A stretch of DNA of 64,000 nucleotides from Roseibium album. GTDB lineage: Bacteria > Pseudomonadota > Alphaproteobacteria > Rhizobiales > Stappiaceae. Position 1 is the stretch's first letter; each line of letters starts with the position of its first letter. Below the pieces are notes generated by a model that was given only the letters and a program-made list of their open reading frames with translations, searched no databases and was not told the origin of the DNA. The translations under genes and the position numbers were made by a program. Location: the NCBI GenBank assembly GCA_001404055.1, contig CXTY01000019.1, positions 186,001 to 250,000 on the forward strand, in the 5' to 3' direction. Below are positions 13,570 through 30,333 of this stretch, one piece after another.

Positions 13570-15092
13570 TGCGGGTATCCCTCTGGCTGCATGGATGGCG
13601 CCCTAAGCGTCGCCAGATGCATAATGTCTTCCTGGGTGGTTTCTTCGCCGCCCGGCAAAATGCCGGTGAGGCGGCCTTCGCACATGACCGCGATGCGGTG
13701 GCTGAGGCGCATGATTTCCGGCAATTCGGAGGAAATAACGATGATGGCTCGCCCCTCTTTCGCCAGTTTTTTCAAGAGCTTGTAGATCTCGGACTTTGCG
13801 CCGACATCAATGCCGCGTGTCGGCTCATCGAAGATGAGAATGTCGCAATCCCGATAAAGCCATTTGGCGATGACGACCTTCTGCTGGTTGCCGCCGGACA
13901 GCAGCCGGACTTCCTGCCTGTCGGACGGCGTCCGGATCTCCAGCTTGCCGATATAGTCCTGTGCCGTGTCCCGCATTTCGCTCTCGCGCAGAACGCCCAA
14001 GCGGCTGGAAAATCGGTCAAGGCTGGCAAGCGCAATGTTGCTCCTGACATCCATACCCGTGGCAAGTCCGAAGTGCTTCCGGTCTTCTGACAGGTACCCG
14101 ATACCGGCTTTTACTGCGTCAGCGGGTTTTGAAATGGAGCATGCTTTGCCATGAACCCGGATTTCACCTGCTTCTCTGGGATCAGCGCCAAAAATTGCCC
14201 GCGCAACTTCCGTTCGCCCGGCACCCATCAATCCGGCAAACCCAAGAATTTCGCCTTTCTTGACCGAAAACGTAACGTCCTGGATCTCGCGCCCTCTCGT
14301 GAGGCCGCTAACCTCGAGTAACGCTTCTGCCTCGGAAAGATCCGGAATGACGACAGGATCGTTGGTGACTTCACGGCCAACCATCATGGAAATGATCTTG
14401 GAAACAGGCGTATCTGCCGCCTCTACCGTGCCGATATAGGCGCCATCGCGCATGATCGTCACCCGGTCGGCGATCTGCTTCAACTCGTCCATCTTGTGGC
14501 TGATGTAGATGATGCCAACGCCATCGGCTTTGAGCCGGCGAATGATGGTGAAGAGCTCTGCGATTTCCGCGTCGTTTAGAGCTGCCGTCGGTTCGTCCAT
14601 GATGAGAACCCGGGAGCGATATGACAGAGCTTTTGCAATTTCGACCATCTGCTGTTTGGCGATTGTCAGGGTGCCAACGATGGTTTTTGGGTCCAAATCA
14701 AGATTCATGGACTGGAAAATCTCGACCGCCTTGCGATTCAAGGCAGCCTCATCAAGACGACCAAATCGCAGACGAGGTTCCCGGCCGATAAAAATGTTCT
14801 GGGCGACCGTCAGGTCATTCATCAGGCTCAGTTCCTGGTGAATGATGCCAATGCCGAGATCCTGCGACGACCGGGGTCCATCGAGCTCAACTTCTGTGCC
14901 ATTGATGAAGAGCTCACCTCCATCCTTGGGATAGATACCGGACAGGACCTTCATCAGTGTTGATTTGCCGGCGCCATTCTCGCCCATCAGGGCATGAACT
15001 TCTCCGCCGTTCAGCTCAAAGCTGACATTCTTCAATGCGTGAACACCGGGGAACCGCTTTTCAATCCCTTTCATCGAGACCAGATTTGTCAT
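13566..15092 (-). CDS. Sugar ABC transporter ATPase, two-domain (RbsA/MglA-like)
   Basis: 508-aa cytoplasmic ATPase with two tandem ABC domains. Domain 1 has Walker [10 protein letters not shown] and Walker [12 protein letters not shown]; domain 2 (from about residue 255) has a degenerate P-loop GLMGAGRTE, signature [10 protein letters not shown] and Walker [13 protein letters not shown]. Degeneration of the second Walker A is normal in this family. Its size contrasts with the single-domain ATPase at 2439. It energises uptake by the permease at 12565. It follows the SDR gene by 35 bases and precedes the permease with a 4-base overlap, in one minus-strand operon. Confidence 0.93.
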
Positions 15093-15127
15093 AGTGCAAT
15101 CCTCCCAAACTGCAACAGGTTCGCCAC

Positions 15128-15877
15128 CTAGATAGTGACGCCTCCGTCGACCAGAATTGCCTGTCCGGAGACGAACTGGCTCTCATCGGAAAGCAGGTAG
15201 ACGACCATGGGTGTCATGTCGTCGACGGTTGCCAACCGGCCCATCGGCTGACGGGCGATGAAGTTTTTCTCCGCTGCAGCAGGATCATCAGCGGCAGCGA
15301 TGCGACCACGCAAAGACGGCGTGTCGACTGTCCCAGGACACAGCGCGTTACAGCGAACACCCTCTTTCACGTAGTCGGCAGCGATTGATTTTGTCAGACC
15401 GATAACTGCGGCTTTGGTCGCGCCATAAAGCGTTCGAACCGGGAACCCCTTGATGGAGGAAGCCATGGAAGACATGTTGAGAACAGAGGCTGTTCCAGTT
15501 GTTTTTGCCCGCTCCAACATGCCTGGAAGAAAAGCCTTGGACATGCGAAACATTGATGTGACGTTGAGATCGAAGCTGAATGCCCAGTCTTCTTCGCTGA
15601 CATCCAGGATCGTGCCGTGATGAACAAATCCGGCGCAGTTGAAGAGCCCATCCAGCGCAGGCAACTTGCCGGCAAGTTCCACAATCTGTTCGCGGTCACA
15701 GACGTCCAGTTTGTGAATTTCGATGCCCGGACATTCATCGGGTAGCGTCCACAGGGTGGTTTCATTGATATCCACCGCAATAACGTTTGCACCTTCCCTC
15801 GCGCAGGCAATCGCGCTGGCACGACCAATACCCTGGCCGGCTGCGGACACCAATATTGTCTTGTCCTTCAAGCGCAC
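15128..15877 (-). CDS. SDR dehydrogenase, probable 2-keto-3-deoxy-L-fuconate dehydrogenase
   Basis: 249-aa classical SDR. Cofactor motif AAGQGIGRA (residues 12-20), the acidic VDIN after strand 2 that selects NAD over NADP, NCAG in place of NNAG, active-site SSMAS serine and YGATK. The segment DTPSLRGRI and overall pattern resemble the BDH2/DHRS6 subgroup, whose bacterial members oxidise 2-keto-3-deoxy-L-fuconate at C4 in the non-phosphorylating L-fucose route. The gene sits between the UxaA-type dehydratase and the importer, where that step is expected. Product passes to the FAH-family hydrolase encoded at the end of the operon. Confidence 0.8.
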
Positions 15878-15932
15878 TGATAAGCCTCCCGATGCTTGTG
15901 CGGTTTTTCAGTTTGGAAATTTGTGGCGCCTG

Positions 15933-17459
15933 CTACATCACGGCACCTATCTGCCAGGGAACAAACTCACAGTCTCCATAGCCAAGCTCTTCGCTCTTGG
16001 ACTTCTTGCCAGATGCAACGCTTATGATTTCTTCGAGGATTTCGTGGCCCTTGGTCTCAAGGCTCACATCATCTGAAACTATATCGCCGCAGTTGATGTC
16101 CATGTCTTCGGACATGCGGCTGTACATTTCAGTGTTGGTGGAAAGCTTGATGCAGGGGGTTGGCATATAACCTGAAACCGAGCCGCGCCCGGTGGTGAAA
16201 ACCACGATGTTTGCACCAGAGGCGATTTGCCCCGTAACCGAGCACGGGTCAAATCCGGGGCTGTCCATGAAGACGAACCCCTTCTTGTCGATGGGTTGTG
16301 CAAATTTGTAGACGTCGACCAAGGGAGCCGAGCCACCCTTGGCGGTCGCTCCCAGGGATTTTTCCAGGATTGTGGTGAGACCACCGCGCTTGTTTCCCGG
16401 TGAGGGATTGTTATCCATCTCCCCACCGTTGCGTTCTGTGTAGTCTTCCCACCAGCGAACCCGCTCGAGCAGCTTTTCACCAACTTCAACCGAGACCGCC
16501 CGTCGGGTCAGCAGGTGTTCTGCACCGTATATTTCTGAGGTTTCAGACAGGATGGTGGTACCACCATGGCGAACGAGCAAGTCAGAGGCGACGCCAAGCG
16601 CAGGATTGGCGGTAATTCCGGAGTAGCCGTCCGAGCCTCCACATTGCATTCCGACCGTGATTTCCGAAATCGGCACCGGCGTGCGTGTGGCCGAATTGGC
16701 TATCTCTGCCAGCTCTCTGAGCTCTTTCAAACCCGCTTCGATTGTTTTCCTGGTTCCGCCAGTCTGCTGGATGGTCATGTAACGCAGGTCGCCACCTGGC
16801 CGGATCTTGCGATCACCGACCAGATCTGCAATCTGCATGACTTCGCACCCGAGCCCGATCAGCAGGATCGCAGCAAAATTCGGATGCTGCGCGTAGCCCG
16901 ATAGCGTTCTGAACAGCGTAGCATAGCCTTCGTCCGTTGCGGACATGCCGCAACCGGTGCCATGTACGATAGGAACGATGCCGTCCACATTTGGAAATTC
17001 GTCAAGCAGGCCGGATTTCTCCGCCGCCTTGGCAATGAACTTGGCGACAGATCCGGAACAGTTTACCGATGTCAGGATACCAATGTAATTCCGGGTCCCG
17101 GCCTTGCCGGTCGAGCGCCTGTATCCGGCAAAAGTCCGCTCTTCGGTAATCGGGTCCAAAGCCGCGGAGGCAACAGCAAACTGATGGTCCTGACCGCGAT
17201 CCATCATGCCGAGGTTATGAACATGAACATGCTCACCCGGATGAATGTCGGACTTGGCCTGACCGATTATCTGGCCATAGCGAACGACCGCGTCTCCGGC
17301 GGCGATCGGTTTTCTGGCAACCTTGTGACCGCGTTGAATATCATTCAGCAGCGGAACATCGACGAATTCTGCGCTTGCGCCAGCGACAATGTCCTGAAGC
17401 GCGATAACAACATTATCGTCCGCGTTCAGAAGGATCGAATTGGCAAAAGTCTGCAGCAC
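15933..17459 (-). CDS. Altronate dehydratase (UxaA)-family protein, candidate L-fuconate dehydratase
   Basis: 508-aa cytoplasmic dehydratase of the UxaA/GarD type, with a small N-terminal SAF-like domain (about residues 10-95, containing the metal-binding HVHVHNLG) and a large C-terminal catalytic domain with conserved VNCSGS, HGTGCGM, MQCGGSDGYSGITANPALG and GRGSVSGYMPTPCIKLSTN motifs. The start is a GTG at 17459 with GAGGGAG upstream. In the L-fucose route the dehydration step is classically done by the enolase-superfamily FucD; no such gene is in the locus, so this protein probably replaces it. It is the first gene of the six-gene operon, divergent from the GntR regulator. Altronate or galactarate dehydration is the alternative. 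Confidence 0.75.
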   Translation of the reverse strand: MLQTFANSILLNADDNVVIALQDIVAGASAEFVDVPLLNDIQRGHKVARKPIAAGDAVVRYGQIIGQAKSDIHPGEHVHVHNLGMMDRGQDHQFAVASAALDPITEERTFAGYRRSTGKAGTRNYIGILTSVNCSGSVAKFIAKAAEKSGLLDEFPNVDGIVPIVHGTGCGMSATDEGYATLFRTLSGYAQHPNFAAILLIGLGCEVMQIADLVGDRKIRPGGDLRYMTIQQTGGTRKTIEAGLKELRELAEIANSATRTPVPISEITVGMQCGGSDGYSGITANPALGVASDLLVRHGGTTILSETSEIYGAEHLLTRRAVSVEVGEKLLERVRWWEDYTERNGGEMDNNPSPGNKRGGLTTILEKSLGATAKGGSAPLVDVYKFAQPIDKKGFVFMDSPGFDPCSVTGQIASGANIVVFTTGRGSVSGYMPTPCIKLSTNTEMYSRMSEDMDINCGDIVSDDVSLETKGHEILEEIISVASGKKSKSEELGYGDCEFVPWQIGAVM

Positions 17460-17512
17460 GTATTTACTCCCTCACAGCCATTCAGCAGGCCGCCCTTGCC
17501 AACACGATTAGC

Positions 17513-17540
17513 TTGACAGACGAACTGTGTCAACTAACAT
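17513..17540 (+). promoter_or_regulatory. Candidate sigma-70 promoter of the fuc regulator operon
   Basis: TTGACA at 17513-17518 and TAACAT at 17535-17540, spaced by 16 bases, 25 bases upstream of the GntR ATG. The -10 hexamer lies inside the palindrome at 17534. Confidence 0.55.
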
Positions 17541-17545
17541 GTTAG
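17534..17545. promoter_or_regulatory. Palindromic operator CTAACATGTTAG
   Basis: A perfect 12-bp palindrome in the divergent gap between the UxaA-type gene and the GntR gene, covering the putative -10 box. GntR/FCD proteins bind short palindromes of this kind, so it is the likely autoregulatory site of the regulator at 17565. Confidence 0.6.
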
Positions 17546-17564
17546 CATTCTAATAGAGATAGTC

Positions 17565-18278
17565 ATGACAACAACGAACGATCAAGTCATTGAGCAAATT
17601 GCCCTGCCGGACATCGGAAAGCTCACCGGCTCGCTTGCACAGCGGGTCTATGAAGCCTTGCGAACGTCCATTATTGAAATGGACCTGCCACCTGGTACAC
17701 CATTGAAAAAGCAGGTGATTTGTGAACAACTCGGCGTTTCCCGTTCCCCGGTAACCGAGGCAATTACCAAGCTTGCAGGCGAAGGTCTGGTGGAGGTAAT
17801 TCCTCAATCCGGTTCACGTGTCTCGCGGTTTTCCATGTCGGAAATCTACGAGGGCGCGTTCCTGCGCGAAGCCATTGAATTGGCAGCGGTCACCAAGGTT
17901 GCCGCGGAGCGAACCGAAGAACAGCTGTCTGAACTCACCCGAAATCTTCGGCTGCAGGCTCTCTATCTGGAAGATCACGACGAAGCCGGTTTTTATCGGG
18001 AAGACGAGCATATGCACGAACTCATTTTCGCCTTCACCGGCTATCCTAAACTCAATGCACTGGCGGCCACCGGATGGATCCAGGTGAACCGGGCACGTCT
18101 TTTGCTCCTGCCTTTGAAAGGCCGCGCCGAGAGCGCCTATGAAGAGCACAAGACCATCATTGACGCCATTATCGCCAAGGATCCGGAAGCCGCACGAAAA
18201 GCCATGCAGGACCATCTGAGTTCTCTCGTTACACGGCTGGAACCGCTGGCCAAGGAACGGCCGGACTTGTTCGACTAG
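17565..18278 (+). CDS. GntR/FCD transcriptional regulator of the L-fucose locus
   Basis: 237 aa. N-terminal winged helix (about residues 20-85) with LPPGTPLKKQVICEQLGVSRSP, where LGVSRSPVTEAITKL is the recognition region. The C-terminal FCD domain carries EDEHMHELIFAFTG, EHKTIIDAII and MQDHLSSLVTRLE, the usual histidine/acid metal ligands. It is divergent from the catabolic minus-strand operon and leads a plus-strand operon with the AKR, FucU and lactonase genes. The CTAACATGTTAG palindrome 20 bases upstream suggests autorepression relieved by a pathway acid such as L-fuconate or its keto derivative. Confidence 0.85.
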   Translation: MTTTNDQVIEQIALPDIGKLTGSLAQRVYEALRTSIIEMDLPPGTPLKKQVICEQLGVSRSPVTEAITKLAGEGLVEVIPQSGSRVSRFSMSEIYEGAFLREAIELAAVTKVAAERTEEQLSELTRNLRLQALYLEDHDEAGFYREDEHMHELIFAFTGYPKLNALAATGWIQVNRARLLLLPLKGRAESAYEEHKTIIDAIIAKDPEAARKAMQDHLSSLVTRLEPLAKERPDLFD

Positions 18279-18331
18279 CTCAGTCAGCGCAAGCAAGGCG
18301 CATCCACCGCAATTTCTCGAAAGGAATACAA

Positions 18332-19387
18332 ATGACTGGCCTTGGAATGCGTCTTCTCAACGACCGGACGGCGAAGAAAATTCAGCTAACAGAAATGGGA
18401 TTTGGCGGCGCTCCCCTTGGCAACCTTTATCGAAAGATTTCAGAATCAGATGCACAGGCTGCATTGCAGGCCGCCTATGATCACGGCATCCGGTATTTCG
18501 ACACAGCCCCACAATATGGCCTTGGCCGGTCTGAAGAACGGTTTGGCAAGGCTATCAAGCGTTTTGACCGGGATAGTATTCAGCTTTCGACAAAAATCGG
18601 CAGGCTGTTGCTGGATTGCGAGCCTGATGAAGTGACGCCCGAAGCCTTTGTCGACGTGCCGCAAAAGCGAATTGTCTTTGACTATAGCTACGATGGGGTC
18701 ATGCGCAGTTACGAGGCCAGCAAAGCCCGACTGGAAGTCGAAAAGGCCGATATCCTGTTCGTCCACGACGTTTGCGCATTTTCACAAGGCTCTCAGGCAA
18801 AAAGCGACGCGCGCGTGCGGGAACTGTTCGACCTTGGCGGCTATCGCGCCCTAACAGAACTGCGAGAAGCAGGCGAGATTTCCGCGATTGGCGCAGGCGT
18901 AAATGAATGGCAGGTTTGCGAGAAATTGCTTGGGCTGGCAGACTTCGACTGTTTCCTGCTTGCAGGCAGATACACGCTGCTTGAACAGGAATCCCTGGAG
19001 AGCTTTCTACCGCTATGCGAGAAGCGTGATGTCGGCATCATTCTGGGCGGACCCTATAATTCCGGCATTCTGGCAACCGGTGCCGTTCCTGGTGCCAAGT
19101 ACAATTACGCAGACGCCCCGCCTGAAATCATGGATCGGGTTCGCCAGATCGAGGAAATATGTGCAGCACATTCCGTCCAATTGATCGCGGCAGCACTTCA
19201 GTTCGTGCTCGGGCATCCAAGCGTAAAAACTGTTGTGCCAGGTGCCGTCAATGCGCGCGAAGTTGAGGCCAACCTTGACCTGCTCAACGCGCCTATCCCG
19301 GATGCGTTCTGGTCTGACCTGCGCACCAGCGGCCTGGTGCGCGACGATGCCCCGATGCCGGAGGTACGCTCATGCTCCGCGGCATAA
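18332..19387 (+). CDS. Aldo/keto reductase, probable L-fucose (D-threo-aldose) 1-dehydrogenase
   Basis: 351-aa AKR-fold oxidoreductase; start set by GAAAGGA before the ATG. The catalytic tetrad is intact: D57 and Y62 in FDTAPQYG, K88 in STKIG, H145 in FVHD. The motif FDTAPQYGLGRSEERFG and FDYSYDGVMRS match the D-threo-aldose 1-dehydrogenase/L-fucose dehydrogenase group, which oxidises L-fucopyranose to L-fuconolactone with NAD(P). FucU mutarotase and the lactonase are encoded immediately downstream, overlapping by 16 and 4 bases. D-arabinose and L-galactose are usual side substrates of this group. The reaction is cytosolic. Confidence 0.85.
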   Translation: MTGLGMRLLNDRTAKKIQLTEMGFGGAPLGNLYRKISESDAQAALQAAYDHGIRYFDTAPQYGLGRSEERFGKAIKRFDRDSIQLSTKIGRLLLDCEPDEVTPEAFVDVPQKRIVFDYSYDGVMRSYEASKARLEVEKADILFVHDVCAFSQGSQAKSDARVRELFDLGGYRALTELREAGEISAIGAGVNEWQVCEKLLGLADFDCFLLAGRYTLLEQESLESFLPLCEKRDVGIILGGPYNSGILATGAVPGAKYNYADAPPEIMDRVRQIEEICAAHSVQLIAAALQFVLGHPSVKTVVPGAVNAREVEANLDLLNAPIPDAFWSDLRTSGLVRDDAPMPEVRSCSAA

Positions 19388-19803
19388 ATCCTCTTTTGTC
19401 CCCAGACTTGCTCCATGCGCTGCGCGCCATGGGGCATGGCGATGACCTCGTGATTGCTGACGCAAATTTCCCTGCAACAAGCAATGCCAAACGTGTGGTG
19501 CGCCTTGATGGCATATCAGCAACTGCAGCACTTGAGGCCATTCTCCAGGTTATGCCGCTGGACACGTTCGTCCCGGACCCTGCGCTCACAATGCAGGTTG
19601 TTGGCAACCCATCGGAAACGCCGCCTGTTGTCGCTGAATTTCAGGAAATCATTGATCGAACCGCTGACAATCGCGCAGAAATCTCCAGCCTGGAACGCAA
19701 CGAGTTTTATCTCCGGTCCATGACCTCCTTTGTCATCCTGCAAACTGGTGAAACCCGTCTTTACGGCAACATCATTTTGAAAAAAGGCGTCATTGGCTCA
19801 TGA
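19372..19803 (+). CDS. fucU: L-fucose mutarotase (FucU/RbsD family)
   Basis: 143-aa RbsD/FucU-fold protein, the normal length for the family. The N-terminal MLRGINPLLSPDLLHALRAMGHGD-x-x-x-I-A-D-A-N-F pattern, with the catalytic-region His in MGHGD and Asp in ADANFP, is diagnostic. It interconverts alpha- and beta-anomers so that the pyranose dehydrogenase is fed. It overlaps the 3' end of the AKR gene by 16 bases and its own stop overlaps the lactonase start in ATGA. Together these couplings make a dedicated three-enzyme entry module. Confidence 0.9.
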   Translation: MLRGINPLLSPDLLHALRAMGHGDDLVIADANFPATSNAKRVVRLDGISATAALEAILQVMPLDTFVPDPALTMQVVGNPSETPPVVAEFQEIIDRTADNRAEISSLERNEFYLRSMTSFVILQTGETRLYGNIILKKGVIGS

Positions 19804-20651
19804 CCTCCAATCGCCGCCGGATCGATGCACACCAACATTTCTGGAAGACCGCCCGGGGCGACTATGGCTGGTTGACGCCCGAATTGAAGCCACTCTATCG
19901 GGATTTTCTTCCAAGTGATTTGGCACCCTTGCTTAAAGAACACGGCATAGAAGGAACCGTACTCGTTCAGGCAGCCCCCACTATTGCCGAGACCGAGTAT
20001 TTGCTATCGCTTGCAGATCAGGCACCATTCATCAAGGGAGTGGTTGGCTGGGTCGACTTTGAAGCCAAGGAAGCCTCGCAGCAGATCGAACGACTTTCAA
20101 AACATCGCGCGCTTGTCGGCATTCGACCGATGATCCAGGATATTCCCGACGATGCCTGGATGCTCAAGCCAGAATTGACCCCGGCCTTTTCAGCGCTTGA
20201 ACACCGGTCTCTGACATTCGACGCGCTGACACTGCCACGGCATCTGCAACATCTTTTGAAACTTCTCGACTGTCACCCAACTTTGCGTGTTGTGATTGAC
20301 CACGGGTCAAAGCCGGATATCCGTTCTGGAGAATTTTCCGGCTGGGCAAGCGACATCGCGGCGCTGGCCAAAAACACTTCGGCCTATTGCAAACTGTCAG
20401 GACTGGTTACGGAAGCTGCAGATGATTGGACAGTCGACGACTTGAAACCCGTTGTCGACCACCTTCTGGAGACCTTTGGGCCGAAGCGTCTCATTTGGGG
20501 AAGCGACTGGCCTGTATGCACACTTGCAGCTGGTTTTGCGGACTGGGTTTCGGCAACTGAACACTTACTCAGCAGCCTGACGACCAACGAAGTGGATCAC
20601 GTCTGGTACCAAAACGCTATCGAAGCCTATCAGCTCGATCTCCAACGTTGA
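19800..20651 (+). CDS. Amidohydrolase-family L-fuconolactonase
   Basis: 283-aa TIM-barrel amidohydrolase of COG3618 type. N-terminal RIDAHQHFWK is the metal-binding HxH; DYGWLT follows, VIDHGSKPDI carries the later histidine, and WGSDWPVC holds the catalytic aspartate. Members of this group hydrolyse L-fuconolactone and related 1,4/1,5-lactones to the acid. The gene is coupled to fucU by ATGA overlap. It ends 14 bases from the convergent histidine-kinase gene, with no obvious terminator between them. Confidence 0.85.
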   Translation: MTSNRRRIDAHQHFWKTARGDYGWLTPELKPLYRDFLPSDLAPLLKEHGIEGTVLVQAAPTIAETEYLLSLADQAPFIKGVVGWVDFEAKEASQQIERLSKHRALVGIRPMIQDIPDDAWMLKPELTPAFSALEHRSLTFDALTLPRHLQHLLKLLDCHPTLRVVIDHGSKPDIRSGEFSGWASDIAALAKNTSAYCKLSGLVTEAADDWTVDDLKPVVDHLLETFGPKRLIWGSDWPVCTLAAGFADWVSATEHLLSSLTTNEVDHVWYQNAIEAYQLDLQR

Positions 20652-20665
20652 TTTTTAGATCTCAA

Positions 20666-22795
20666 TCAAACCTGGGCTGCAATTTTGGTTTCCAACTGCA
20701 GCTCACCAGGAAATCTCAGTTCGACAGCGGTCCCCTTGCCCGGTTCAGACGAGATACTGGCAGCCCCGCCACTTTGCCGAACAAAACCGTAAACAACCGC
20801 CAACCCCAGACCAGCTCCGCCTAGGTGCGCGCGCGTGGTGAAATAGGGTTCAAAAGCCTTGTCCACCTCTTCCCGGCTCATGCCACTACCCTTGTCCTTA
20901 ACAACGACGACGATGTCGTCGCCCTGCCGGCACGCCTTCACACAAATCACACCGCCATCCGGCATCGCGGCAGCGGCATTCAAGCAAAGATTGAGCACTG
21001 ATTGCTCAAGCAGTTCTGGATCGAGCACCATTGGCGGAAGATCGTCTTCCAGATCGAGCGTAAGGCTACAGTTTTCGCCAATCGCGATTTCCAGGATATC
21101 CGCCATGCCCCGGAGCACCGAGGACAGCTCGATCAGGCTGGAATTTATCGGTTGCTGCTGACCAATGGTCAGCATGCTGCTGGCAAGCGACCGGCCTCTG
21201 TCAGCTGCTTTGCGGATGCGGGCAATATGGCGCATCTGCTTCTTGCTGAAGCCTTCATCATTTTCCAGGAGCCCCAGACTTCCGGTAATAATTCCGATCA
21301 TGTTGCCGACTTCGTGGCTCAGCTGGTGAGTGAGGCGCATGATGCCATCGAGGCGTAGCGCCTTGGCAGCTTCGGCTTCCTGCTTGTCGAGCAGCGTCAC
21401 GTCGCGTGCCAGCAATACAACACCGTCATCACTCTGATGGGACAAGGATATTTCGGTCACAGTTCCATCTTCTGCGCGATGCCGAACCGAGACGGGTTCT
21501 GTCAAAGGACGCGCATTCATCCCACCGGGCAAGGTATCAACCGGAATTTCCGGAATTGGTGACAGGAACTCGACAAGCGGCAATTTGCGTGCAGACCCCT
21601 TGTGGCCCATCAGCTCAATTACTCTGCGGTTCATCGTGATCGGCAGTCCGGACGCATCGAAAATCGCGATGCCCTCATTCATACTGCGGAAAGTGGACCG
21701 AATAGTCCGTGCAGCGGCTTCAGCGGTCCTGCGCAAACGCGCCACCCGGTCGCCACTTTCCTTGAAGGCCTGGAACGCCCGTTGAAGATCGAGAAGTTCA
21801 GTTTCATCGCCCTGATAGACCGGAGGTCCAACATCTTTCTGACCCTTGGCAAGCGCGTTCATGCCGCTTGCAAGGGAAACGATTCCCCGAGAGACACGGA
21901 TCGCGGACCGAATGGAAAGAACAGCAATCGTCAAAACCAGAAGTGAAGCCACAGCAACAATGACCAAAAGCTTCTTCAGTGTTTCCGACGTCGACTGGAA
22001 GTCCCTGTTGAGGGTCTGGGTAACGATGTCGGACTGAGTCTCAGTTGCAAGCGACAGCTCTCGCGCCACACTATGCAATTCTGCAACGGAGGCGCGGACT
22101 GCAAACATCTCCAGCAGGTAGTTTGTCTGAGCGGAAAACACCCGTTCATAAGGTTCAAGCTCTGCCTCTTCCAGCAATCCAATCAAAGAGAGGCTGTCGT
22201 TGTCTGGTGAGGTTTCAGCAACATATCTTCGGCGTAGCTCTCCAAGCTGAAACAGACTTCCGGAACTGGAAACGGAATGCACCATGGCGTTCAATCGCTG
22301 CCGCAGTTCCTTTTGCTTCACGGTTTCACCAACGGCGATTTCGCCCAGCGCCGACGCCACCTGTTCCTTGTAGGTCTGGGCGGTTTCCGCCTTGCTGGCA
22401 AGATCCAGCGTTTGAGACCTGATTTCCTCCAGAAGTTCAAAAATTCGCGTATTCGCGGCCCGGTAAGCTTCCTTGCCAGGCGGGTATTCCGGAATGGTAC
22501 GCAGCAATTCGTCAACCTGGGAAACCAGCGCACGGCTCTTGCTTGAAACCCGGTATGGCGAGGTCGCGTTCATCAAAAAGGGCGCACTTGAGACAAGGTC
22601 CGAAACTTGTCGGGAGACAAGTGAGGAATCTGCAAGGCTGGAATAGGCTTGAAGACCATAAGCCGCCGTTTCTTCCCGCGCCTTCAGCAAGCCATAGATG
22701 GCGATAGCCGACAGCGCGAAAGCCACGGCGCATATCAAGACGATGGCCGCTGGCAGCCGGAAGGCGATTGAGGAAAGGACGGGGCGAGAAATCAT
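20666..22795 (-). CDS. Membrane sensor histidine kinase
   Basis: 709 aa. Two membrane helices (about 15-38 and 270-293) flank a roughly 230-residue periplasmic domain predicted to be helical, unlike common PAS/Cache sensors. A HAMP-like linker follows, then a PAS-like region (about 360-460), a phosphoacceptor box LSHEVGN with H494, and an HATPase domain with NLCLNAAAAMPDGG (N-box), DKGSGM and GGAGLGLAVVYGF (G boxes). It overlaps the response-regulator stop by 4 bases (ATGA), so both are made together. Lying back-to-back with the AfuA-like genes, it likely senses the compound they import or its presence outside the cell. Confidence 0.88.
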   Translation of the reverse strand: MISRPVLSSIAFRLPAAIVLICAVAFALSAIAIYGLLKAREETAAYGLQAYSSLADSSLVSRQVSDLVSSAPFLMNATSPYRVSSKSRALVSQVDELLRTIPEYPPGKEAYRAANTRIFELLEEIRSQTLDLASKAETAQTYKEQVASALGEIAVGETVKQKELRQRLNAMVHSVSSSGSLFQLGELRRRYVAETSPDNDSLSLIGLLEEAELEPYERVFSAQTNYLLEMFAVRASVAELHSVARELSLATETQSDIVTQTLNRDFQSTSETLKKLLVIVAVASLLVLTIAVLSIRSAIRVSRGIVSLASGMNALAKGQKDVGPPVYQGDETELLDLQRAFQAFKESGDRVARLRRTAEAAARTIRSTFRSMNEGIAIFDASGLPITMNRRVIELMGHKGSARKLPLVEFLSPIPEIPVDTLPGGMNARPLTEPVSVRHRAEDGTVTEISLSHQSDDGVVLLARDVTLLDKQEAEAAKALRLDGIMRLTHQLSHEVGNMIGIITGSLGLLENDEGFSKKQMRHIARIRKAADRGRSLASSMLTIGQQQPINSSLIELSSVLRGMADILEIAIGENCSLTLDLEDDLPPMVLDPELLEQSVLNLCLNAAAAMPDGGVICVKACRQGDDIVVVVKDKGSGMSREEVDKAFEPYFTTRAHLGGAGLGLAVVYGFVRQSGGAASISSEPGKGTAVELRFPGELQLETKIAAQV

Positions 22796-23535
22796 GACAG
22801 TGTATCGGCGTTGTCCCGGTGAAGAATGTAGCCTTTTCCTCTTCGGGTTTTGATATGACGCGGAAGGTCTGGATTGCGCTCGATTTTTCGGCGCAACCGC
22901 AAGACAAGAACGTCGACGTTTCGATCAATCAGACGATCCGTTTCCGCGCCCAGCTGCTCCAGAATCTGGGTGCGACTGACAGGTTCGTTCGGAGTTGCCG
23001 CAAGAATTTCGAGAAGGGAGAATTCAGAAGTCGTCAACGTCTTCGCAGGATCCGATCTGCAGATCGCCTTGCGATTTGTGAGGTCGATGACCCAGTCACC
23101 AAGGAGTATTGCCGACGGCTCGTGCTGAACGGTGGGAAATTCCTTTTCGCTCTTCAAGGCCGGGTGTATGCGTCTGAGGACAGCCTTGATCCGCGCAGTC
23201 AGCTCAATCGGCTCAAACGGCTTGACCACATAATCATCTGCCGCGGTCTCGAGACCCAACACACGCTCTGCAGCGCTTCCCGCAGCGGTCACCATCACGA
23301 TACCGATGTCCGCCTGGGATCGCAGCTTCTGCGCAAATACTCTACCGGACATTCCCGGTAGGTTGTGATCGACCAGAACAAGATGAAACGTCTGCCCGGC
23401 CAGAGTTCTGGCAGCCTCTTCTGCCGAACCCGCGATATCCGGAATCCAGCCTTCAGCTTCCACGAGATCCGATATCAGCTCCGCCATATCCGGATCGTCT
23501 TCAACGATCAGGATACTGATGCCTTCATTGAGCAA
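22792..23535 (-). CDS. OmpR/PhoB-type response regulator
   Basis: 247 aa from a TTG start at 23535, chosen because GGGAGGAAG (23541-23549) is 5-7 bases upstream and because the receiver fold begins right there; the frame runs up to 23577 without a ribosome site. Receiver domain: EDD at 12-14, phosphoacceptor D56 in LVDHNLPG, T in VMVTAAG, K in VVKPFEP. The C-terminal winged helix (about 150-245) includes LTTSEFSLLEILA, DVLVLRLRRKIERNPDLP and IKTRRGKGYIL, the PhoB-type DNA-binding pattern. It probably activates the divergent importer operon at 23749. Confidence 0.9.
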   Translation of the reverse strand: MLNEGISILIVEDDPDMAELISDLVEAEGWIPDIAGSAEEAARTLAGQTFHLVLVDHNLPGMSGRVFAQKLRSQADIGIVMVTAAGSAAERVLGLETAADDYVVKPFEPIELTARIKAVLRRIHPALKSEKEFPTVQHEPSAILLGDWVIDLTNRKAICRSDPAKTLTTSEFSLLEILAATPNEPVSRTQILEQLGAETDRLIDRNVDVLVLRLRRKIERNPDLPRHIKTRRGKGYILHRDNADTLS

Positions 23536-23540
23536 AACGA

Positions 23541-23549
23541 CTTCCTCCC
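23541..23549 (-). promoter_or_regulatory. Ribosome-binding site deciding a TTG start
   Basis: GGGAGGAAG on the minus strand sits 5 bases from the TTG at 23535 and fixes the response-regulator start. Confidence 0.6.
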
Positions 23550-23748
23550 AACAGACATAATATGCATGGCGCTTCAATTAGCAAAGTACTGATTTTCCTT
23601 ATGTTTGTCAGAATTGTAAGGTTTGTAATATTTGCAACAATATTTCTTCCGCACCGAAACAACGGTAACCAAACTACAGTTGCGGATCCGGCTGTTTCTG
23701 GCATGCTGAAGACCTACCCGGGGCTTGTGCGCCGGGTTGGGAGGAAAC

Positions 23749-24789
23749 ATGAAAATTGTCACGCCATTCGGAGTGGGCGCAGCCTTCTGGCTTTGCGCTA
23801 CGCTCACTAATGCTTCAGCACAGGACCTGAGCGTTCTGTGCGGCGTTGACAGGGACTGGTGCCAGTCCATGGAAGTGGCGTTCGAGGAAAAAACAGGTTT
23901 GAAGATTTCGATGGTGCGCAAGAGCACCGGTGAAATTCTCAATCAGATCCGCGGCGAAAGCGAGGATCCGAAAGTCGATGTCTGGTGGGGCGGAACAGGC
24001 GACACACATCTTCAAGCGGTCGCAGAAGACCTTTTGGAGCCTTACCGGTCACAGCATGAAGACGACGTTCTTCCCTGGGCACAGAATTTCTATCTCATGT
24101 CAGGTGGAATGGCGTCTGGTGTCTACGCTGGCGCGCTTGGGTTTTCCTATAATTCAGACATCCTGGCCGACAAGGCGATTGAGACCCCATCCTGCTGGAA
24201 GGACCTGACGGATCCGAAGTACCGGGGTCTGGTGCAAATGGCCAATCCAAACACATCCGGCACTGCCTTCACCACCCTTGCAACGCTGGTTCAGCTTCTC
24301 GGTGAAGAAGAGGCTTTCCAGTATCTGGTGGAGCTCGGCAAAAACATTTCGCAATTCACAACATCGGGCGCTGCGCCGGTGAAGGCGGCAGCACGCGGGG
24401 AAACCGGGATCGGGATTTCTTTCATTCACGACGCGGTGACGCAAAAACATGCCGGTGCGCCCCTGGTGATTGTCGCGCCTTGCGAGGGCACTGGATATGA
24501 AATCGGTGCCGTCAGCATCGTGAGAGGCGCAAGCAACCTTGAGGCTGCACGCCTATTTGTCGACTTTTCGCTGAGCCCTGCAGGCCAGGCAACAGGCGCA
24601 GCTTCCGGACAGAACCAGATTCCATCGAATGCCAGAGCAGCACTACCAGCTGCCGCTCCAGACATTTCGCTGATCAGAATGGTTGACTACGACTTTGCAA
24701 CCTTTGGCTCGCCTGAGCAAAGGCACAGGTTGCTGGAACGCTTCAATGGTGAGGTGCGCTCGAATGACGAGCTAGCGACCATGAACTAG
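23749..24789 (+). CDS. Periplasmic binding protein, AfuA-like (first of two)
   Basis: 346 aa from the ATG at 23749 with GGGAGGAAA just upstream. A signal peptide covers about residues 1-24. It is a type II binding protein of the iron/2-aminoethylphosphonate/hexose-phosphate group: VDVWWGGTGDTHLQAVAED, GALGFSYNSDIL, ANPNTSGTAFTTLA, FTTSGAAPVKAAARGETGIG and FIHDAVTQ (short cores). The HD pair and a Glu 24 residues after the His (in PCEGTGYE) match the spacing I recall for sugar-phosphate contacts in AfuA. It is first in an operon with a second, similar binding protein, a fused permease, an ATPase and a phosphatase. Confidence 0.85.
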   Translation: MKIVTPFGVGAAFWLCATLTNASAQDLSVLCGVDRDWCQSMEVAFEEKTGLKISMVRKSTGEILNQIRGESEDPKVDVWWGGTGDTHLQAVAEDLLEPYRSQHEDDVLPWAQNFYLMSGGMASGVYAGALGFSYNSDILADKAIETPSCWKDLTDPKYRGLVQMANPNTSGTAFTTLATLVQLLGEEEAFQYLVELGKNISQFTTSGAAPVKAAARGETGIGISFIHDAVTQKHAGAPLVIVAPCEGTGYEIGAVSIVRGASNLEAARLFVDFSLSPAGQATGAASGQNQIPSNARAALPAAAPDISLIRMVDYDFATFGSPEQRHRLLERFNGEVRSNDELATMN

Positions 24790-24957
24790 AGGACAGGAAT
24801 TTAAGGAATTCAAATCTGATCGGCAACGGACCGTCATCACGGCTCCGAACGGGAAAACTATGCCCAAATGCCGGTTACGACCCAGCCGAAAGGCTGAAAT
24901 CGAAGACCTGCAAATGTTCAGCAGGCACCAGGCGATAAGCCAAATGTGGAGGAAAAC

Positions 24958-25986
24958 ATGTCACTGAAAGCTCTTTCTATTGCGATGCTCGCCACCAGCG
25001 CTGCATTCACCATTTCTCAGGCCCAGGCAGCTGGAAGCCTCAATGTTATCTGTTCTGCCGATGTCGTCATCTGCGAACAGCTCAAAGGCGACTTTGAGAA
25101 AAAGCATGACATCAAGGTGAACATGGTCCGCCTGTCATCAGGCGAAAGCTATGCCAAGATCCGGGCAGAATCCCGTAATCCAAAAACTGATATCTGGTGG
25201 GGTGGTACTGGCGATCCACATCTTCAGGCTGCTTCTGAAGACCTGACCCAGGAATACAAGTCCGCGAAGCTGGGTGATCTTCATGAGTGGGCTCAAAAGC
25301 AGGCAGCAAGCTCTGGCCACAAGACCGTAGGTATTTACGCTGGCGCCCTCGGTTGGGGCTACAACGCCGACATCTTCAAAGCCAAAGGTTACAAGGAGCC
25401 TCTGTGCTGGGCCGACCTTCTGAACGCGGAACTCAAGGGCGAAATCCAGGTTGCCAATCCGAACTCATCGGGCACGGCCTACACAACGCTCGCTTCTCTT
25501 GTCCAGATCATGGGTGAAGACGAGGCTTTCGAGTATTTGAAGAAACTCAACGCCAACATCTCCCAGTACACGAAATCCGGTTCTGCACCGGTGAAAGCTG
25601 CTGCACGCGGCGAAACTGGCCTTGGTATCGTCTTCATGCATGACGCGATCGCGCAGGCGGCTTCCGGCTTCCCGGTCCAGGCGGTCGCTCCGTGTGAAGG
25701 AACAGGCTATGAAATCGGCTCCATGTCGATCGTCAAGGGCAGCAAGAACCTGGACAACGCGAAGGTCTGGTACGATTGGGCACTTACCCCTGAAGTTCAG
25801 TCTCGCATGAAAGACGCAAAGTCCTTCCAGCTTCCTTCGAACGTATCTGCGGAAATTCCACCGGAAGCTCCGAAGTTCGAAAACATCAAGCTGATTGATT
25901 ATGACTTTGCGACTTACGGTGACCCAAAAACCCGCAAGTCGCTTCTGGAACGTTGGGATCGCGAAGTCGGCTCCATCGCCAACTAA
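24958..25986 (+). CDS. Periplasmic binding protein, AfuA-like (second of two)
   Basis: 342 aa from the ATG at 24958, with GGAGGAAAAC before it. A signal peptide spans about residues 1-22 (LSIAMLATSAAFTISQAQA). It is clearly paralogous to the preceding gene: WWGGTGDPHLQAASED, GALGWGYNADIF, ANPNSSGTAYTTLASL, YTKSGSAPVKAAARGETGLG, and H228-D229 with E252, the same 24-residue spacing as in its neighbour. The absence of the paired tyrosines typical of ferric-ion binding proteins and the phosphatase in the operon favour an organic phosphate ligand. Its 3' end carries a large UUCG-capped hairpin. The 168-base gap before it holds only a small CAGCC-GAAA-GGCTG hairpin (24883-24896). Confidence 0.85.
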   Translation: MSLKALSIAMLATSAAFTISQAQAAGSLNVICSADVVICEQLKGDFEKKHDIKVNMVRLSSGESYAKIRAESRNPKTDIWWGGTGDPHLQAASEDLTQEYKSAKLGDLHEWAQKQAASSGHKTVGIYAGALGWGYNADIFKAKGYKEPLCWADLLNAELKGEIQVANPNSSGTAYTTLASLVQIMGEDEAFEYLKKLNANISQYTKSGSAPVKAAARGETGLGIVFMHDAIAQAASGFPVQAVAPCEGTGYEIGSMSIVKGSKNLDNAKVWYDWALTPEVQSRMKDAKSFQLPSNVSAEIPPEAPKFENIKLIDYDFATYGDPKTRKSLLERWDREVGSIAN

Positions 25987-26001
25987 AACAGCTCCCAGAA
26001 C

Positions 26002-26039
26002 GGGCCTGCACCGGAGCCTTCGGGCTCTGGCGCGGGCCC
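26002..26039 (+). other. UUCG-capped hairpin between binding protein and permease
   Basis: A 17-bp stem-loop with two wobbles and one mismatch: GGGCC (26002-26006) pairs with GGCCC (26035-26039) and GGAGCC with GGCTCT-type arm, closed by a C(TTCG)G tetraloop at 26018-26023. There is no T-run, so it is more likely an RNA-stability element protecting the upstream binding-protein message than a terminator. Confidence 0.7.
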
Positions 26040-26062
26040 TGTGCCTAATCTAAAAAAATCAA

Positions 26063-28288
26063 ATGACAGGGGTCGCCATGCAACGTGGCAATAAACGGCT
26101 GGATTATCTCCTGATAATGGGGCTGCTCTCTTTTCTTGCTCTACCCTGGTACCGGGTAGAAGGCGGCTTCTTTGCCTTCGAGTGGCTGTCCGGCTTCCTC
26201 TCCTCATCTGATCTTGTCCCTGGCATCCTTCAGATATTTGCAGAAGGACGCGGCTGGCTAGCGCTTGCTCTTGCGCTCTTTCTTCTCGGAGCCGGTGGAC
26301 GTCTCATCGACGACCCGGACAAGCGTGGCAAATTGCTTGTCGTCGCGGGCTCCCTTGGCATCCTCTACATGACCTTCCAGGGTCTGGCGATCAGCTTTAA
26401 CGGTTGGGCCTGGACGATCATGGATACCAGTTTTGGCTCCCTGCAGATGGGTCAACCCGCCATGGGCGCCGGCGCGATTCTGCTTTCGCTGGTCTTTGTG
26501 CTTTTCATCGCCTTTGGATTTGCAGAACGCGGTGTGATGAAGGGCGACGCCTTTGTTGTCGGCTCGATTTCGGTGCTCGTGTTTCTGGTCACCGTGTTTA
26601 TTTTCTACCCGATCGGCAGCATGTTCGTGGGTTCCGTCCAGGATTTCGACGGCTCTTTCAAACCGGACGGCTTCATCGAAAACATGCAGGACCCATCGAT
26701 CTGGAGCCTGAACTGCGTTGTCGGCGCCGGACGCTGTGGTGTTGCCTGGCGCACACTCTTTCTGGCTCTGCTATCCGGAGCGGGTTCAACGCTGCTGGGT
26801 CTTGCTTTCGCGCTGGTGGCAACACGCACGAATTTCCCGTTCAAAAAAGGTCTGCGCCTCCTGACGGTGCTACCGATCATCACGCCTCCGTTCGTGATCG
26901 GTCTGGCACTGACGCTTCTCTTTGGCCGCGCCGGCGTTGTCACAGAAGGCCTTCATTTCCTCTTTGGCATCGAACCGAGCCGCTGGCTCTACGGCCTGAC
27001 CGGTATCTGGATAGCGCAGGTTCTCTCTTTCACTCCAATTGCCTTCCTGGTGCTTATCGGCGTGGTCGAGGGCGTCAGCCCATCCATGGAAGAAGCTTCT
27101 CAAACGTTGCGCGCCGACAGATGGCGGACATTCTGGAAGGTTTCGCTGCCGCTGATGAAACCCGGCCTGGCGAATGCGTTCCTGATCGGCTTCATCGAGA
27201 GCATGGCAGATTTCGGCAACCCGCTTGTTCTTGGCGGCAGCCACGGGGTTCTATCCACCGAGATCTTTTTCGCCGTTGTCGGCTCGCAGGTTGATCCGTC
27301 GCGCGCTGCTGTCCTCGCAATTGTCCTGCTCAGCTTCACGCTGACCGCATTTCTCGCGCAGCGGCTCTGGCTGTCCGGCAAGAATTTCGCCACGGTGACC
27401 GGCAAGGGTGACAGCGGTGCGCACGCCGGTCTGCCAAAAAGCCTGTCAATTTCAGTCTACGGCATTGTCGTTCCCTGGATGATGTTCACAGTCATTGTCT
27501 ATGGCATGATCATCTTCGGCGGCTTTGTGAAAACCTGGGGCCTCGATCACTCCCTGACGCTTGAACACTATGCGCGTGCCTTTTCCGTCAGCTTTGAAAA
27601 TGGAGCACTGGCCTGGACCGGCGTTGCCTGGAATTCGTTCTGGACGACAATGGAAATCGCGCTCATTTCTGCGCCACTAACCGCTGCTGTTGGCTTGCTG
27701 ACCGCCTATATCATCGTCCGTCAAAAGTTCGCAGGTAAAAGCGCTTTCGAGTTTGCGCTGATGATGAGTTTTGCGATCCCGGGCACCGTTATCGGCATCA
27801 GTTACATCATGGCTTTCAACTTGCCACCGATCGAAATGACGGGTTCGGCATTGATCCTGGTCGCCTGTTTTGTCTTCCGGAACATGCCGGTTGGCGTGCG
27901 AGGTGGCATCGCAGCCATGAGCCAGATCGACAAAAGCCTGGACGAAGCCTCTCTTACCTTGAAGGCAAACAGTGCACGCACATTGCGCAAGGTGATCCTG
28001 CCACTGCTACGCCCGGCGATCACTGCGGCTCTGGTCTACTCGTTTGTCAGGGCAATCACCTCAATCAGCGCCGTCATCTTCCTGGTGAGCGCGGAATACA
28101 ACATGGCCACGTCTTACATTGTCGGGCTGGTCGAGAACGGCGAATACGGCATCGCGATTGCCTATTCCTCGATGCTGATCGTCGTCATGATCACGGTGAT
28201 AACCTGTTTCCAGCTTCTGGTTGGAGATAGGCGCCTGCGACGGGAAAACCGGTGTCCGGCCTCACCAAGACACGTAAATTTCGTTTGA
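26063..28288 (+). CDS. Fused ABC transporter permease (AfuB/FbpB-like)
   Basis: 741-aa inner-membrane protein with two MalF/ThiP-like halves. Each half carries an ATPase-docking EAA loop: EEASQTLRADRWRTFWKVSLP near residue 350 and DEASLTLKANSARTLRKVILP near residue 640 (cores EEASQTL and DEASLTL). At least twelve membrane segments are visible, with an extra cluster of about five hydrophobic helices at the N-terminus (residues 10-170), longer than the minimal FbpB. Either the ATG at 26063 or at 26078 could start it. It works with the ATPase at 28305 and the two binding proteins upstream. Substrate class is set by the binding proteins, not by this subunit. Confidence 0.88.
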   Translation: MTGVAMQRGNKRLDYLLIMGLLSFLALPWYRVEGGFFAFEWLSGFLSSSDLVPGILQIFAEGRGWLALALALFLLGAGGRLIDDPDKRGKLLVVAGSLGILYMTFQGLAISFNGWAWTIMDTSFGSLQMGQPAMGAGAILLSLVFVLFIAFGFAERGVMKGDAFVVGSISVLVFLVTVFIFYPIGSMFVGSVQDFDGSFKPDGFIENMQDPSIWSLNCVVGAGRCGVAWRTLFLALLSGAGSTLLGLAFALVATRTNFPFKKGLRLLTVLPIITPPFVIGLALTLLFGRAGVVTEGLHFLFGIEPSRWLYGLTGIWIAQVLSFTPIAFLVLIGVVEGVSPSMEEASQTLRADRWRTFWKVSLPLMKPGLANAFLIGFIESMADFGNPLVLGGSHGVLSTEIFFAVVGSQVDPSRAAVLAIVLLSFTLTAFLAQRLWLSGKNFATVTGKGDSGAHAGLPKSLSISVYGIVVPWMMFTVIVYGMIIFGGFVKTWGLDHSLTLEHYARAFSVSFENGALAWTGVAWNSFWTTMEIALISAPLTAAVGLLTAYIIVRQKFAGKSAFEFALMMSFAIPGTVIGISYIMAFNLPPIEMTGSALILVACFVFRNMPVGVRGGIAAMSQIDKSLDEASLTLKANSARTLRKVILPLLRPAITAALVYSFVRAITSISAVIFLVSAEYNMATSYIVGLVENGEYGIAIAYSSMLIVVMITVITCFQLLVGDRRLRRENRCPASPRHVNFV

Positions 28289-28304
28289 CGCAGGAGAAAA
28301 CTGC

Positions 28305-29366
28305 ATGACTTCCATGACACCCGGTTCCGTCGTTTTTAAAAACGTGCGCAAGAACTTTGGTTCTTTCACCGCCATACACGACCTGTCGCTGACGATCGAA
28401 CCCGGCACCCTGGTGACTCTCCTCGGACCATCTGGCTGCGGCAAGACAACAACTTTGCGTATGCTGGCCGGATTGGAACACCCGACATCAGGTCGGATCT
28501 TCATCGGCGGCAAAGACGTGACGATGCTGCCCGCCCATGAACGTGACGTATCAATGGTGTTCCAGTCCTACGCCCTTTTCCCGCACATGAATGCCCTTGA
28601 GAATGTTGCCTACGGGCTTGAGTCGTCCGGTTTCAGCAAAAGGGAAGCAAAGGAGCGCGCGGAAGACGGCCTGGAACAGGTTGGGCTTGCAAACATGGGG
28701 CATCGGCTGCCAGCGGAGCTGTCGGGCGGCCAGCAGCAAAGGGTTGCGGTGGCCCGGGCTCTTGTACTTGAGCCGCAGGTTCTTCTGCTGGATGAACCCC
28801 TTTCAAACCTTGATGCAAGGCTACGGCGAAAAGTGCGGACTGAAATCCGCGAGTTGCAGCAAAGACTTGGTTTCACGGCAGTTTATGTGACCCACGACCA
28901 GGATGAAGCGCTGGCTGTATCCGACCGGATCGTTGTCATGAAGGATGGCGAGATTGCCCAGGCTGGCACGCCGCAGTGTCTCTATGATGAGCCCGTCTCG
29001 GCCTTCATTGCCGATTTCATGGGTGAAGCGAACGTCGTCGCCTGCAACGTGATCGAACATGTGGGAGACCAGGCCGTTATTGATGTTGGTGGACTTGAGC
29101 ACAGGTTGCCGTCCCGCCAAAGCAAAGTTGGCCAGGCCAAGCTGGCTGTCAGGCCCGGATCTGTTGTTCTTGACCCCGATGCAAATTCCGGCCTCGGCGG
29201 CGAAATACTGACCTCGGCCTATCTCGGAGATCACGTCGAATATGAAGTCGAAACGCCGGTTGGAAACTTCTTTGTCATTGATCACACTGTTGAACGCTCC
29301 CTTTCCCCCAAAACTGCTGTCTCGCTTGGTTTTAGAAACCGCGGACTGGCCTTGATCGAGGGATAG
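28305..29366 (+). CDS. ABC transporter ATPase (AfuC/FbpC/PotA-like)
   Basis: 353-aa cytoplasmic ATPase. Walker A GPSGCGKTT, Q-loop FQSYALFPH, signature LSGGQQQRVAVARA, Walker B VLLLDEPLSNLD, H-loop VTHDQDEAL. A C-terminal TOBE-like beta domain (about 240-353) follows, containing VRPGSVVLDP. This architecture is standard for type I importers of the CUT1/iron/phosphonate group. It starts 16 bases after the permease stop and ends 2 bases before the phosphatase ATG, so the five genes from 23749 form one operon. Confidence 0.92.
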   Translation: MTSMTPGSVVFKNVRKNFGSFTAIHDLSLTIEPGTLVTLLGPSGCGKTTTLRMLAGLEHPTSGRIFIGGKDVTMLPAHERDVSMVFQSYALFPHMNALENVAYGLESSGFSKREAKERAEDGLEQVGLANMGHRLPAELSGGQQQRVAVARALVLEPQVLLLDEPLSNLDARLRRKVRTEIRELQQRLGFTAVYVTHDQDEALAVSDRIVVMKDGEIAQAGTPQCLYDEPVSAFIADFMGEANVVACNVIEHVGDQAVIDVGGLEHRLPSRQSKVGQAKLAVRPGSVVLDPDANSGLGGEILTSAYLGDHVEYEVETPVGNFFVIDHTVERSLSPKTAVSLGFRNRGLALIEG

Positions 29367-29368
29367 GA

Positions 29369-30199: not shown

Positions 30200-30279
30200 G
30201 AGCGCGGGAGACCGTCGCGATCCTTTGCGCCTGCTTGCCTCCTGTTTTCAGGTGTTTTGAAAGTTGGACTGGACAGAAG

Positions 30280-30304: not shown

Positions 30305-30333
30305 ACAGCGTTTGCGAACCGTCCATCAAGCCA

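Follow-up and report, generated by a model that had tools for sequence, protein, structure and literature searches.

Binding-protein-to-kinase signalling is already known in bacteria. In TMAO sensing by the TorT-TorS-TorR system of E. coli, TorT is the periplasmic binding-protein receptor for TorS. In the Uhp system the receptor, UhpC, lies in the inner membrane and the transporter, UhpT, is an antiporter. External sugar phosphate is reported to induce uptake via a kinase complex (PMC4546632). The same source describes the AfuABC importer of Actinobacillus and Citrobacter, and reports that His205, Asp206 and Glu229 of AfuA touch the sugar and are essential, with Ser37 and Thr150 as the phosphate contacts (PMC4546632). 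In the PgtC-PgtB-PgtA system of Salmonella, a sensor protein on the periplasmic side is reported to detect 3-phosphoglycerate and to trigger the kinase, whose regulator turns on the transporter gene (PMC11077982). A literature search, for which subscription journals were largely beyond reach, found no paper on the cassette described below.

The cassette is found in the window, which is the whole 64,000-nucleotide stretch of Roseibium album DNA analysed here (Table 1). The first-pass annotation had described a histidine kinase with a large, unassigned helical periplasmic domain and a PhoB-type regulator, divergent from an AfuA-like importer operon, and this layout was confirmed. The operon encodes two binding proteins (SBP1 and SBP2), a permease, an ATPase and a phosphatase; the interval first noted ends at 23748, the base directly before SBP1. 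The locus resembles AfuABC in its binding-protein family, its key sugar-phosphate residues and its ABC importer (PMC4546632), and goes beyond it in having two binding proteins, a phosphatase and the divergent two-component system. The proposed resemblance to Pgt, compared by description only, is that a phosphorylated compound, in Pgt a glycolytic intermediate, would be sensed via a receptor and a kinase that control a transporter. However, in the published model PgtA works with sigma54 (PMC11077982), whereas the window regulator is of the PhoB/OmpR type, and the Pgt transporter is PgtP, whereas the window encodes an ABC importer served by a binding protein. The pgt genes were not found in the stretches read of CFT073 and UTI89. 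By analogy with UhpBC-UhpA/UhpT, uptake would be induced by external sugar phosphate through a kinase, but the kinase and regulator families appear to differ, with no UhpA- or UhpB-like family among the top 25 of the 73 and of the 77 NCBIfam matches. Given that difference and the helical sensor, the earlier suggestion that the locus may be an independent solution is reasonable with respect to UhpABC, although signalling from a binding protein to a kinase has precedents in TorT/TorS and PgtC/PgtB.

Table 1. Features of the locus, with positions and strands in the window.
Feature	Position	Strand	Basis
Histidine kinase, 709 aa	20666-22795	-	ORF, Pfam domains, hydropathy, structure model, residue conservation
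Kinase periplasmic sensor domain (residues ~35-276), limits approximate	21968-22693	-	Hydropathy, model, fold comparisons
Response regulator, OmpR/PhoB type	22792-23535 (5' end approximate)	-	Pfam, NCBIfam, intergenic alignment
Regulator promoter, -10-like element	23557-23562	-	Consensus TATGAT on the - strand; 44 intergenic regions
Regulator promoter, -35-like CTTTG	23582-23586	-	44 intergenic regions
Block A, tandem direct repeats TTGTCAGAA, TTGTAAGGT, TTGTAATAT, TTGCAA, period 9 bp; proposed regulator site	23605-23637	+	
Block B, conserved CGAAACAACGGTAACCAAACT adjoining the importer -35; proposed activation site	23655-23675	+	
Importer core promoter, TTGCGG (23680-23685), 16 bp, CATGCT (23702-23707)	23680-23707	+	
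SBP1, AfuA-like binding protein; proposed kinase receptor	23749-24789	+	
SBP2, AfuA-like binding protein; proposed transport binding protein	24958-25986	+	
ABC permease, fused two-domain, AfuB-like	26063-28288	+	
ABC ATPase, AfuC-like	28305-29366	+	
Phosphatase, inositol-monophosphatase family	29369-30199	+	

The regulator and kinase genes overlap by four bases, so that the stop codon of the first overlaps the ATG of the second. The regulator probably starts at a TTG, judging from a conserved start-codon column and from ribosome-site spacing, the TTG standing 7 nt after a GGGAGGA-like site. In Pfam searches, the regulator consists of a receiver and a Trans_reg_C domain, and the kinase has a clear HATPase_c domain, with HisKA and PAS matches under their cut-offs. 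The kinase can be divided into a transmembrane segment, the helical periplasmic sensor, a second transmembrane segment, a HAMP-like linker, a weak PAS domain, the H-box His494 and HATPase_c. Between them, the two proteins contain the H-box histidine, the N and G boxes, the receiver aspartate and the winged-helix output of a two-component system. Of the catalytic positions checked, 5/5 in the regulator and 10/11 in the kinase are invariant in 95/95 loci; the exception is kinase Gly660, which differs in one locus and is kept in 94/95. Identification of the regulator as PhoB itself (NCBIfam, 150.3 bits against a cut-off of 296.2) and of the kinase as PhoR (80.8 bits against 334.2) was rejected. 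No Rfam elements were detected in positions 20000-30500.

Hydropathy peaks at kinase residues 16-34 and 277-295 leave about 240 periplasmic residues between the membrane segments (~16-34 and ~277-295), a region that no Pfam family covers. Structure prediction, proposed earlier as a check, gave an all-helical model with a mean pLDDT of 84.7, which aligns to the sensor domains of PilJ, McpS and TorS at Z 10-12. Solved complexes of TorS with TorT are among the structures matched (Z 10.1-11.3 for TorS), and the McpS domain has been solved with malate and succinate bound. However, unrelated helical bundles score equally or higher (up to Z 12.3), and the modelled resemblance to the TorS/PilJ/McpS fold class is therefore suggestive only. 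The TorS sensor domain of Pfam was not found by sequence in the window kinase, is weakly matched in 2/21 aligned kinase members (best E 0.0013) and has no matches in the organism's own genome, and hhalign of the sensor against E. coli TorS gave no match. The likeness to TorS lies in the helical sensor domain of the model, in the proposed binding-protein receptor and in distant relatives that are longer (830-865 aa) and hybrid-like. Unlike TorS, however, the kinase of the window lacks a C-terminal receiver, and it has no sequence match to TorS; unlike in the TorT system, the receptor would be AfuA-like and the target an importer.

The sensor domain was searched in 101 related genomes, of which 23 were matched, 17 at an identity of at least about 60% (one in two pieces). 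A permease of at least 79% identity is present in the same 17/101 genomes as the kinase and in no other. The 15 loci read with their flanks (L031-L045) contain all seven genes in unchanged order, and the outer neighbours in the window are not kept in these loci, save for distant MCP/GntR paralogues in three. In R. aggregatum (L045/L121), the kinase is split. A scan of named genomes found 101 relatives, of which 80 were kept, and the regulator-kinase pair is divergent from SBP1-SBP2-permease-ATPase in 78 of these 80 loci, the remaining two being contigs too short to tell (4,181 and 3,536 bp); such recurrence indicates that the divergent order is not due to chance. The phosphatase is present in 68/80 named loci and missing in 10, with two contigs that end early, and no common gene was found as a substitute phosphatase in the 10 loci. 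Outside those 10, a Rhizobium leguminosarum plasmid has a HAD-family phosphatase at the phosphatase position. The system is carried by many soil and marine bacteria, among them members of Roseibium, Pannonibacter, Shinella, Ensifer, Rhizobium, Agrobacterium and Neorhizobium. SBP1 was matched at an identity of at least 60% in 35 plasmid records, every one of which holds the kinase; the plasmid copies are annotated as ABC or iron transport. This strict co-occurrence, together with a shared conserved promoter region, supports the original view that the two-component system is dedicated to the importer.

The promoter region was aligned for 44 non-redundant regulator-SBP1 intergenic regions out of 95, and contains three conserved zones: regulator promoter-like elements with the ribosome site, Block A, and Block B with the SBP1-side -35 and -10. 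The repeats of Block A have the consensus TTGTnA, and Block B holds two half-like units, 9 bp apart. Across the 95 loci, the spacing of TGTAA-like words peaks at 9 bp (213 pairs), 18 bp (121) and 27 bp (43), against 0 pairs at 10 bp and 2 at 11 bp. At least three units in register occur in 87/95 loci, the other eight intergenic regions having no such in-register triple. The four-unit pattern has one exact match in the window, with 0 expected in 100 shuffles even allowing up to three mismatches, and the three-unit pattern occurs twice in the organism's own genome (6 Mb), once at this locus and once at C1:22618; the reversed pattern does not occur there. Sites for OmpR/PhoB proteins usually have a period of 10-11 bp, with 11 bp for Pho boxes. 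Because the period here is 9 bp and not the 11 bp of Pho boxes, nothing in the repeats points to PhoB. Block A and Block B are putative targets of the local regulator. In the importer promoter, TTG is conserved in 44/44 regions, as are the A, the T and the last T of the -10; this -10 is weak, which makes activation plausible. A sigma70 consensus scan returned two matches against a chance mean of 1.0, one of them being the regulator -10/-35, and did not report the importer core promoter. As the scan is at chance level, the promoter claim rests on conservation. Among 58 non-redundant SBP1-SBP2 intergenic regions, no comparable block that might mark a second conserved promoter was found; conservation there extends to the ribosome site and to a short stretch resembling a hairpin.

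The solved structures closest to SBP1 and SBP2 are AfuA (4r72), 8x1a and P5PA, the last of which has an incomplete triad, without equivalents of Asp206 and Glu229. Equivalents of AfuA Thr150, His205, Asp206 and Glu229 are found in 94/94 SBP1 and 94/94 SBP2 sequences. At the Ser37 site (SBP2 residue 61), SBP2 has Ser in 93 sequences and Ala in 1, and SBP1 has Thr in 91 and Asn in 3 (n=94 for each). The Thr form is common to the binding proteins of kinase cassettes L046, L048, L049, L139 and L150 and two from Phyllobacterium, and the Ser form is found in 6/6 LacI-controlled cassettes examined (vide infra); binding proteins of kinase cassettes L149, L151 and L156 do not match this residue pattern. 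One genome (G055) has a related kinase cassette next to zwf (607.9 bits, cut-off 400.6) and edd (1046.5 bits, cut-off 708.25), in the company of a kinase of the pfkB family and an SMP-30 protein, and this neighbourhood fits a hexose 6-phosphate ligand. Taken with the ligand residues, hexose phosphates would be a probable inducer class.

Cassettes without the kinase and without an adjoining SBP1 were detected at eight loci (L131-L138) with permeases at 67-71% identity. A LacI-like gene (Pfam-confirmed in 2/2 tested) stands where the sensor pair would be, and the binding protein is of the SBP2 type in 6/6 extracted. The layout recurs on S. meliloti pSymA, where the LacI is Pfam-confirmed, and on Pantoea and Aureimonas plasmids. 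These LacI cassettes, in Roseibium relatives and on the plasmids, share the transporter layout and phosphatase family of the window and, where placed in trees, its transporter lineage, but they have one binding protein, a LacI regulator and no kinase. Trees rest on selected representatives (56, 36 and 59, and 47 rows) and a quick method without bootstrap. Among 56 binding proteins in an unrooted tree, SBP2 forms a sister group to those of the LacI cassettes (99 by this method), and SBP1 stands apart with the binding proteins of five kinase cassettes (likewise 99). In the permease tree, the window permease clusters with those of the LacI cassettes, and that of Phyllobacterium falls in with those of kinase cassettes (96 by this method, on a long branch). 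Forcing SBP1 and SBP2 into one clade worsened lnL by 183.5, with a p-AU of 0.0005, in a test of 47 rows from which a very long outgroup and near copies were left out and for which the clade was specified once the first tree was available. A recent tandem duplication was rejected on this result. Judged by these sequences, SBP2, the permease and the ATPase descend from a one-binding-protein cassette under LacI control, and SBP1 descends with the kinase; the trees and the AU test indicate that two units of different cassettes were joined, one made up of SBP2 and its transporter and the other of SBP1 and the sensor genes.

Two Phyllobacterium strains, the only ones of this kind among plasmid records, carry related modules. 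In Phyllobacterium sp. T1293, the regulator-kinase pair is divergent from one SBP1-type protein, a permease and an ATPase. The plasmid of Phyllobacterium sp. 628 carries the pair and an SBP1-type protein, with the permease and ATPase absent within the ~9 kb read on either side. At the limit of the search this plasmid has a single binding-protein place, and, the search having covered the plasmid, the importer could lie elsewhere in the genome. Both SBP1-type proteins keep the ligand residues. The Phyllobacterium sensor had nine matches in 397 genomes of the order, at just 31-38% identity, and no further importer-free module was recognised in the 3/9 matches checked (L167-L169), which carry a window-type regulator and kinase.

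From computed gene order, co-occurrence, conserved residues and repeats, and the separate descent and co-evolution of SBP1 and SBP2, we infer ligand identity, SBP1-kinase contact, regulator binding and activation. The reading favoured here, with somewhat better than even confidence, is a dedicated external-ligand two-component system in which SBP1 is the periplasmic receptor that shows a hexose-phosphate-like ligand to the kinase, and the regulator activates the importer. SBP1 would bind the ligand in the periplasm and, once loaded, dock on the helical sensor domain; the kinase would then phosphorylate the regulator, which, bound to the 9-bp repeats in the shared promoter region, would activate the importer operon and probably its own as well. 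SBP2 would supply the permease and ATPase, and the phosphatase would strip the phosphate inside the cell. By analogy, the most economical reading is that SBP1 and the kinase work by the logic of TorT/TorS and PgtC/PgtB, a role that would be compatible with SBP1 also feeding the permease, as it may. The single binding protein of more distant kinase cassettes must do both jobs or transport only, and counts against a receptor role.

Co-evolution was compared in 38 non-redundant loci, selected from the 91/95 with all genes at a coverage of at least 85%. Distances fall into two groups, kinase-regulator-SBP1 and SBP2-permease-ATPase, and the distance correlation with the sensor is 0.48 for SBP1 and 0.20 for SBP2. 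Partial correlations of branch rates on one fixed tree (73 branches) gave 0.52 and 0.51 for two known contacts used as positive controls, kinase core-receiver and permease-ATPase, and 0.46 for sensor-SBP1 versus 0.00 for sensor-SBP2 (bootstrap 0.99). The SBP1-permease value is 0.07, and SBP2-permease exceeds it in just 0.79 of bootstraps. The regulator-kinase and transporter block trees partly conflict (4/17 strong splits), and linked transfer may therefore cause part of the rate correlation; linked transfer too would mean that SBP1 travels with the kinase. With 20/38 taxa dropped, the 18 left gave 0.54 for sensor-SBP1 versus 0.31 for sensor-SBP2, with a bootstrap of only 0.80. The earlier suggestion that the binding proteins might present ligand to the kinase is thus retained in part, as descent and co-evolution make SBP1 the probable partner, whereas SBP2 goes with the transporter.

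These rates also bear on an alternative, considered unlikely, in which the helical domain of the kinase itself detects the ligand, or a different cue, and SBP1 is a second transport binding protein for the same permease that widens the substrate range. The sensor model is also like McpS, which binds its ligands in the domain, and PilJ; SBP1 retains the full sugar-binding triad, and there are cases elsewhere of two binding proteins serving one permease. However, the SBP1 rate follows the sensor and not the permease, SBP1 is missing from all eight LacI cassettes examined, whose transporter is of this type, and it persists without an adjoining importer in Phyllobacterium sp. 628. That last module also weighs against a still less probable explanation, that the kinase senses the activity of the importer, by way of its permease or ATPase, with SBP1 as a bystander. 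The one-to-one occurrence of kinase and permease in the 101 genomes and a sensor-permease partial correlation of 0.24 would be consistent with such monitoring, but the correlation falls to 0.00 once taxa are pruned. A general system, responding for instance to phosphate starvation, with the importer merely as its neighbour, is very improbable despite the PhoB/OmpR-like regulator and importer substrates that are phosphorylated by homology, given the linkage in 78/80 loci, the lack of a conserved outer flank in the 15 loci read with flanks, beyond the three with distant paralogues, the rarity of the three-unit repeats and scores far under the PhoB and PhoR cut-offs.

It is possible, with the chances evenly balanced, that SBP1 is a former transport binding protein. 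A module of regulator, kinase and binding protein, once in control of its own importer as in Phyllobacterium sp. T1293, would have joined a different, LacI-controlled importer, with SBP1 kept only as the receptor and the regulator reading the unusual 9-bp period; sugar-phosphate sensing would therefore have moved from inside to outside the cell. If true, this would be a clear and genetically simple case of a transport binding protein becoming a pure kinase receptor, with natural controls in the LacI cassettes without SBP1 and in the module without an adjoining importer, and it would name hexose phosphates as the probable inducer class for a widespread system.

The sugar-acid cluster that precedes the cassette (the regulator and kinase genes divergent from the importer and phosphatase genes) encodes an RbsA-like ATPase, an SDR, an altronate/galactarate dehydratase, a GntR protein, an aldo-keto reductase and an amidohydrolase, and no linkage between it and the cassette was found among the 15 relatives compared. 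Elsewhere in the window, aminotransferase, threonine-dehydratase-like, D-threonine-aldolase-like and ornithine-cyclodeaminase-like genes are divergent from an IclR-type regulator; the check covered the IclR gene alone. This set resembles a beta-hydroxyaspartate cycle cluster.

In R. leguminosarum WSM1325, a HAD-family phosphatase occupies the slot of the inositol-monophosphatase-type gene. The R. aggregatum IAM 12614 kinase lies in two frames (L045 and L121 are the same contig), and may be a pseudogene or a draft error. In Rhizobium sp. RCAM05350, where the cassette lacks the two-component system, the permease and ATPase matches are fragmented into several pieces, which suggests frameshifts.

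Coordinates of the features discussed (window or relative's locus)
Feature	Location
Sugar-acid cluster	window 13566-20651
IclR cluster	window 34254-39786
HAD-family phosphatase, WSM1325	L166:14635-15282
Two-frame kinase, IAM 12614	L045:3936-6010
Fragmented permease and ATPase matches, RCAM05350	L164:10146-13445
Kinase-regulator pair divergent from phosphonate-type importer	L047:4564-10727; L050:11687-15391
Phyllobacterium plasmid loci with AHSA1/SRPBCC-like and DUF4781-annotated proteins	L162:8980-18990; L163:8980-17082

At three loci (L149, L151 and L156), sugar-phosphate catabolic clusters contain distant cassettes that pair a hybrid-like kinase with an AfuA-like importer. Family models confirm zwf, edd, a pfkB kinase and an SMP-30 protein in L149 only; judged by sequence, the other two clusters look similar to it. 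Another distant kinase-regulator pair is divergent from genes for a transporter and its binding protein, both of phosphonate type. At L050 the kinase is kept, and what is left of the importer seems to be a permease remnant.

On two Phyllobacterium plasmids, two further proteins come after the module of regulator, kinase and AfuA-like binding protein: one is AHSA1/SRPBCC-like, the other very large and annotated as DUF4781. The module's regulator may have gained a new target here.
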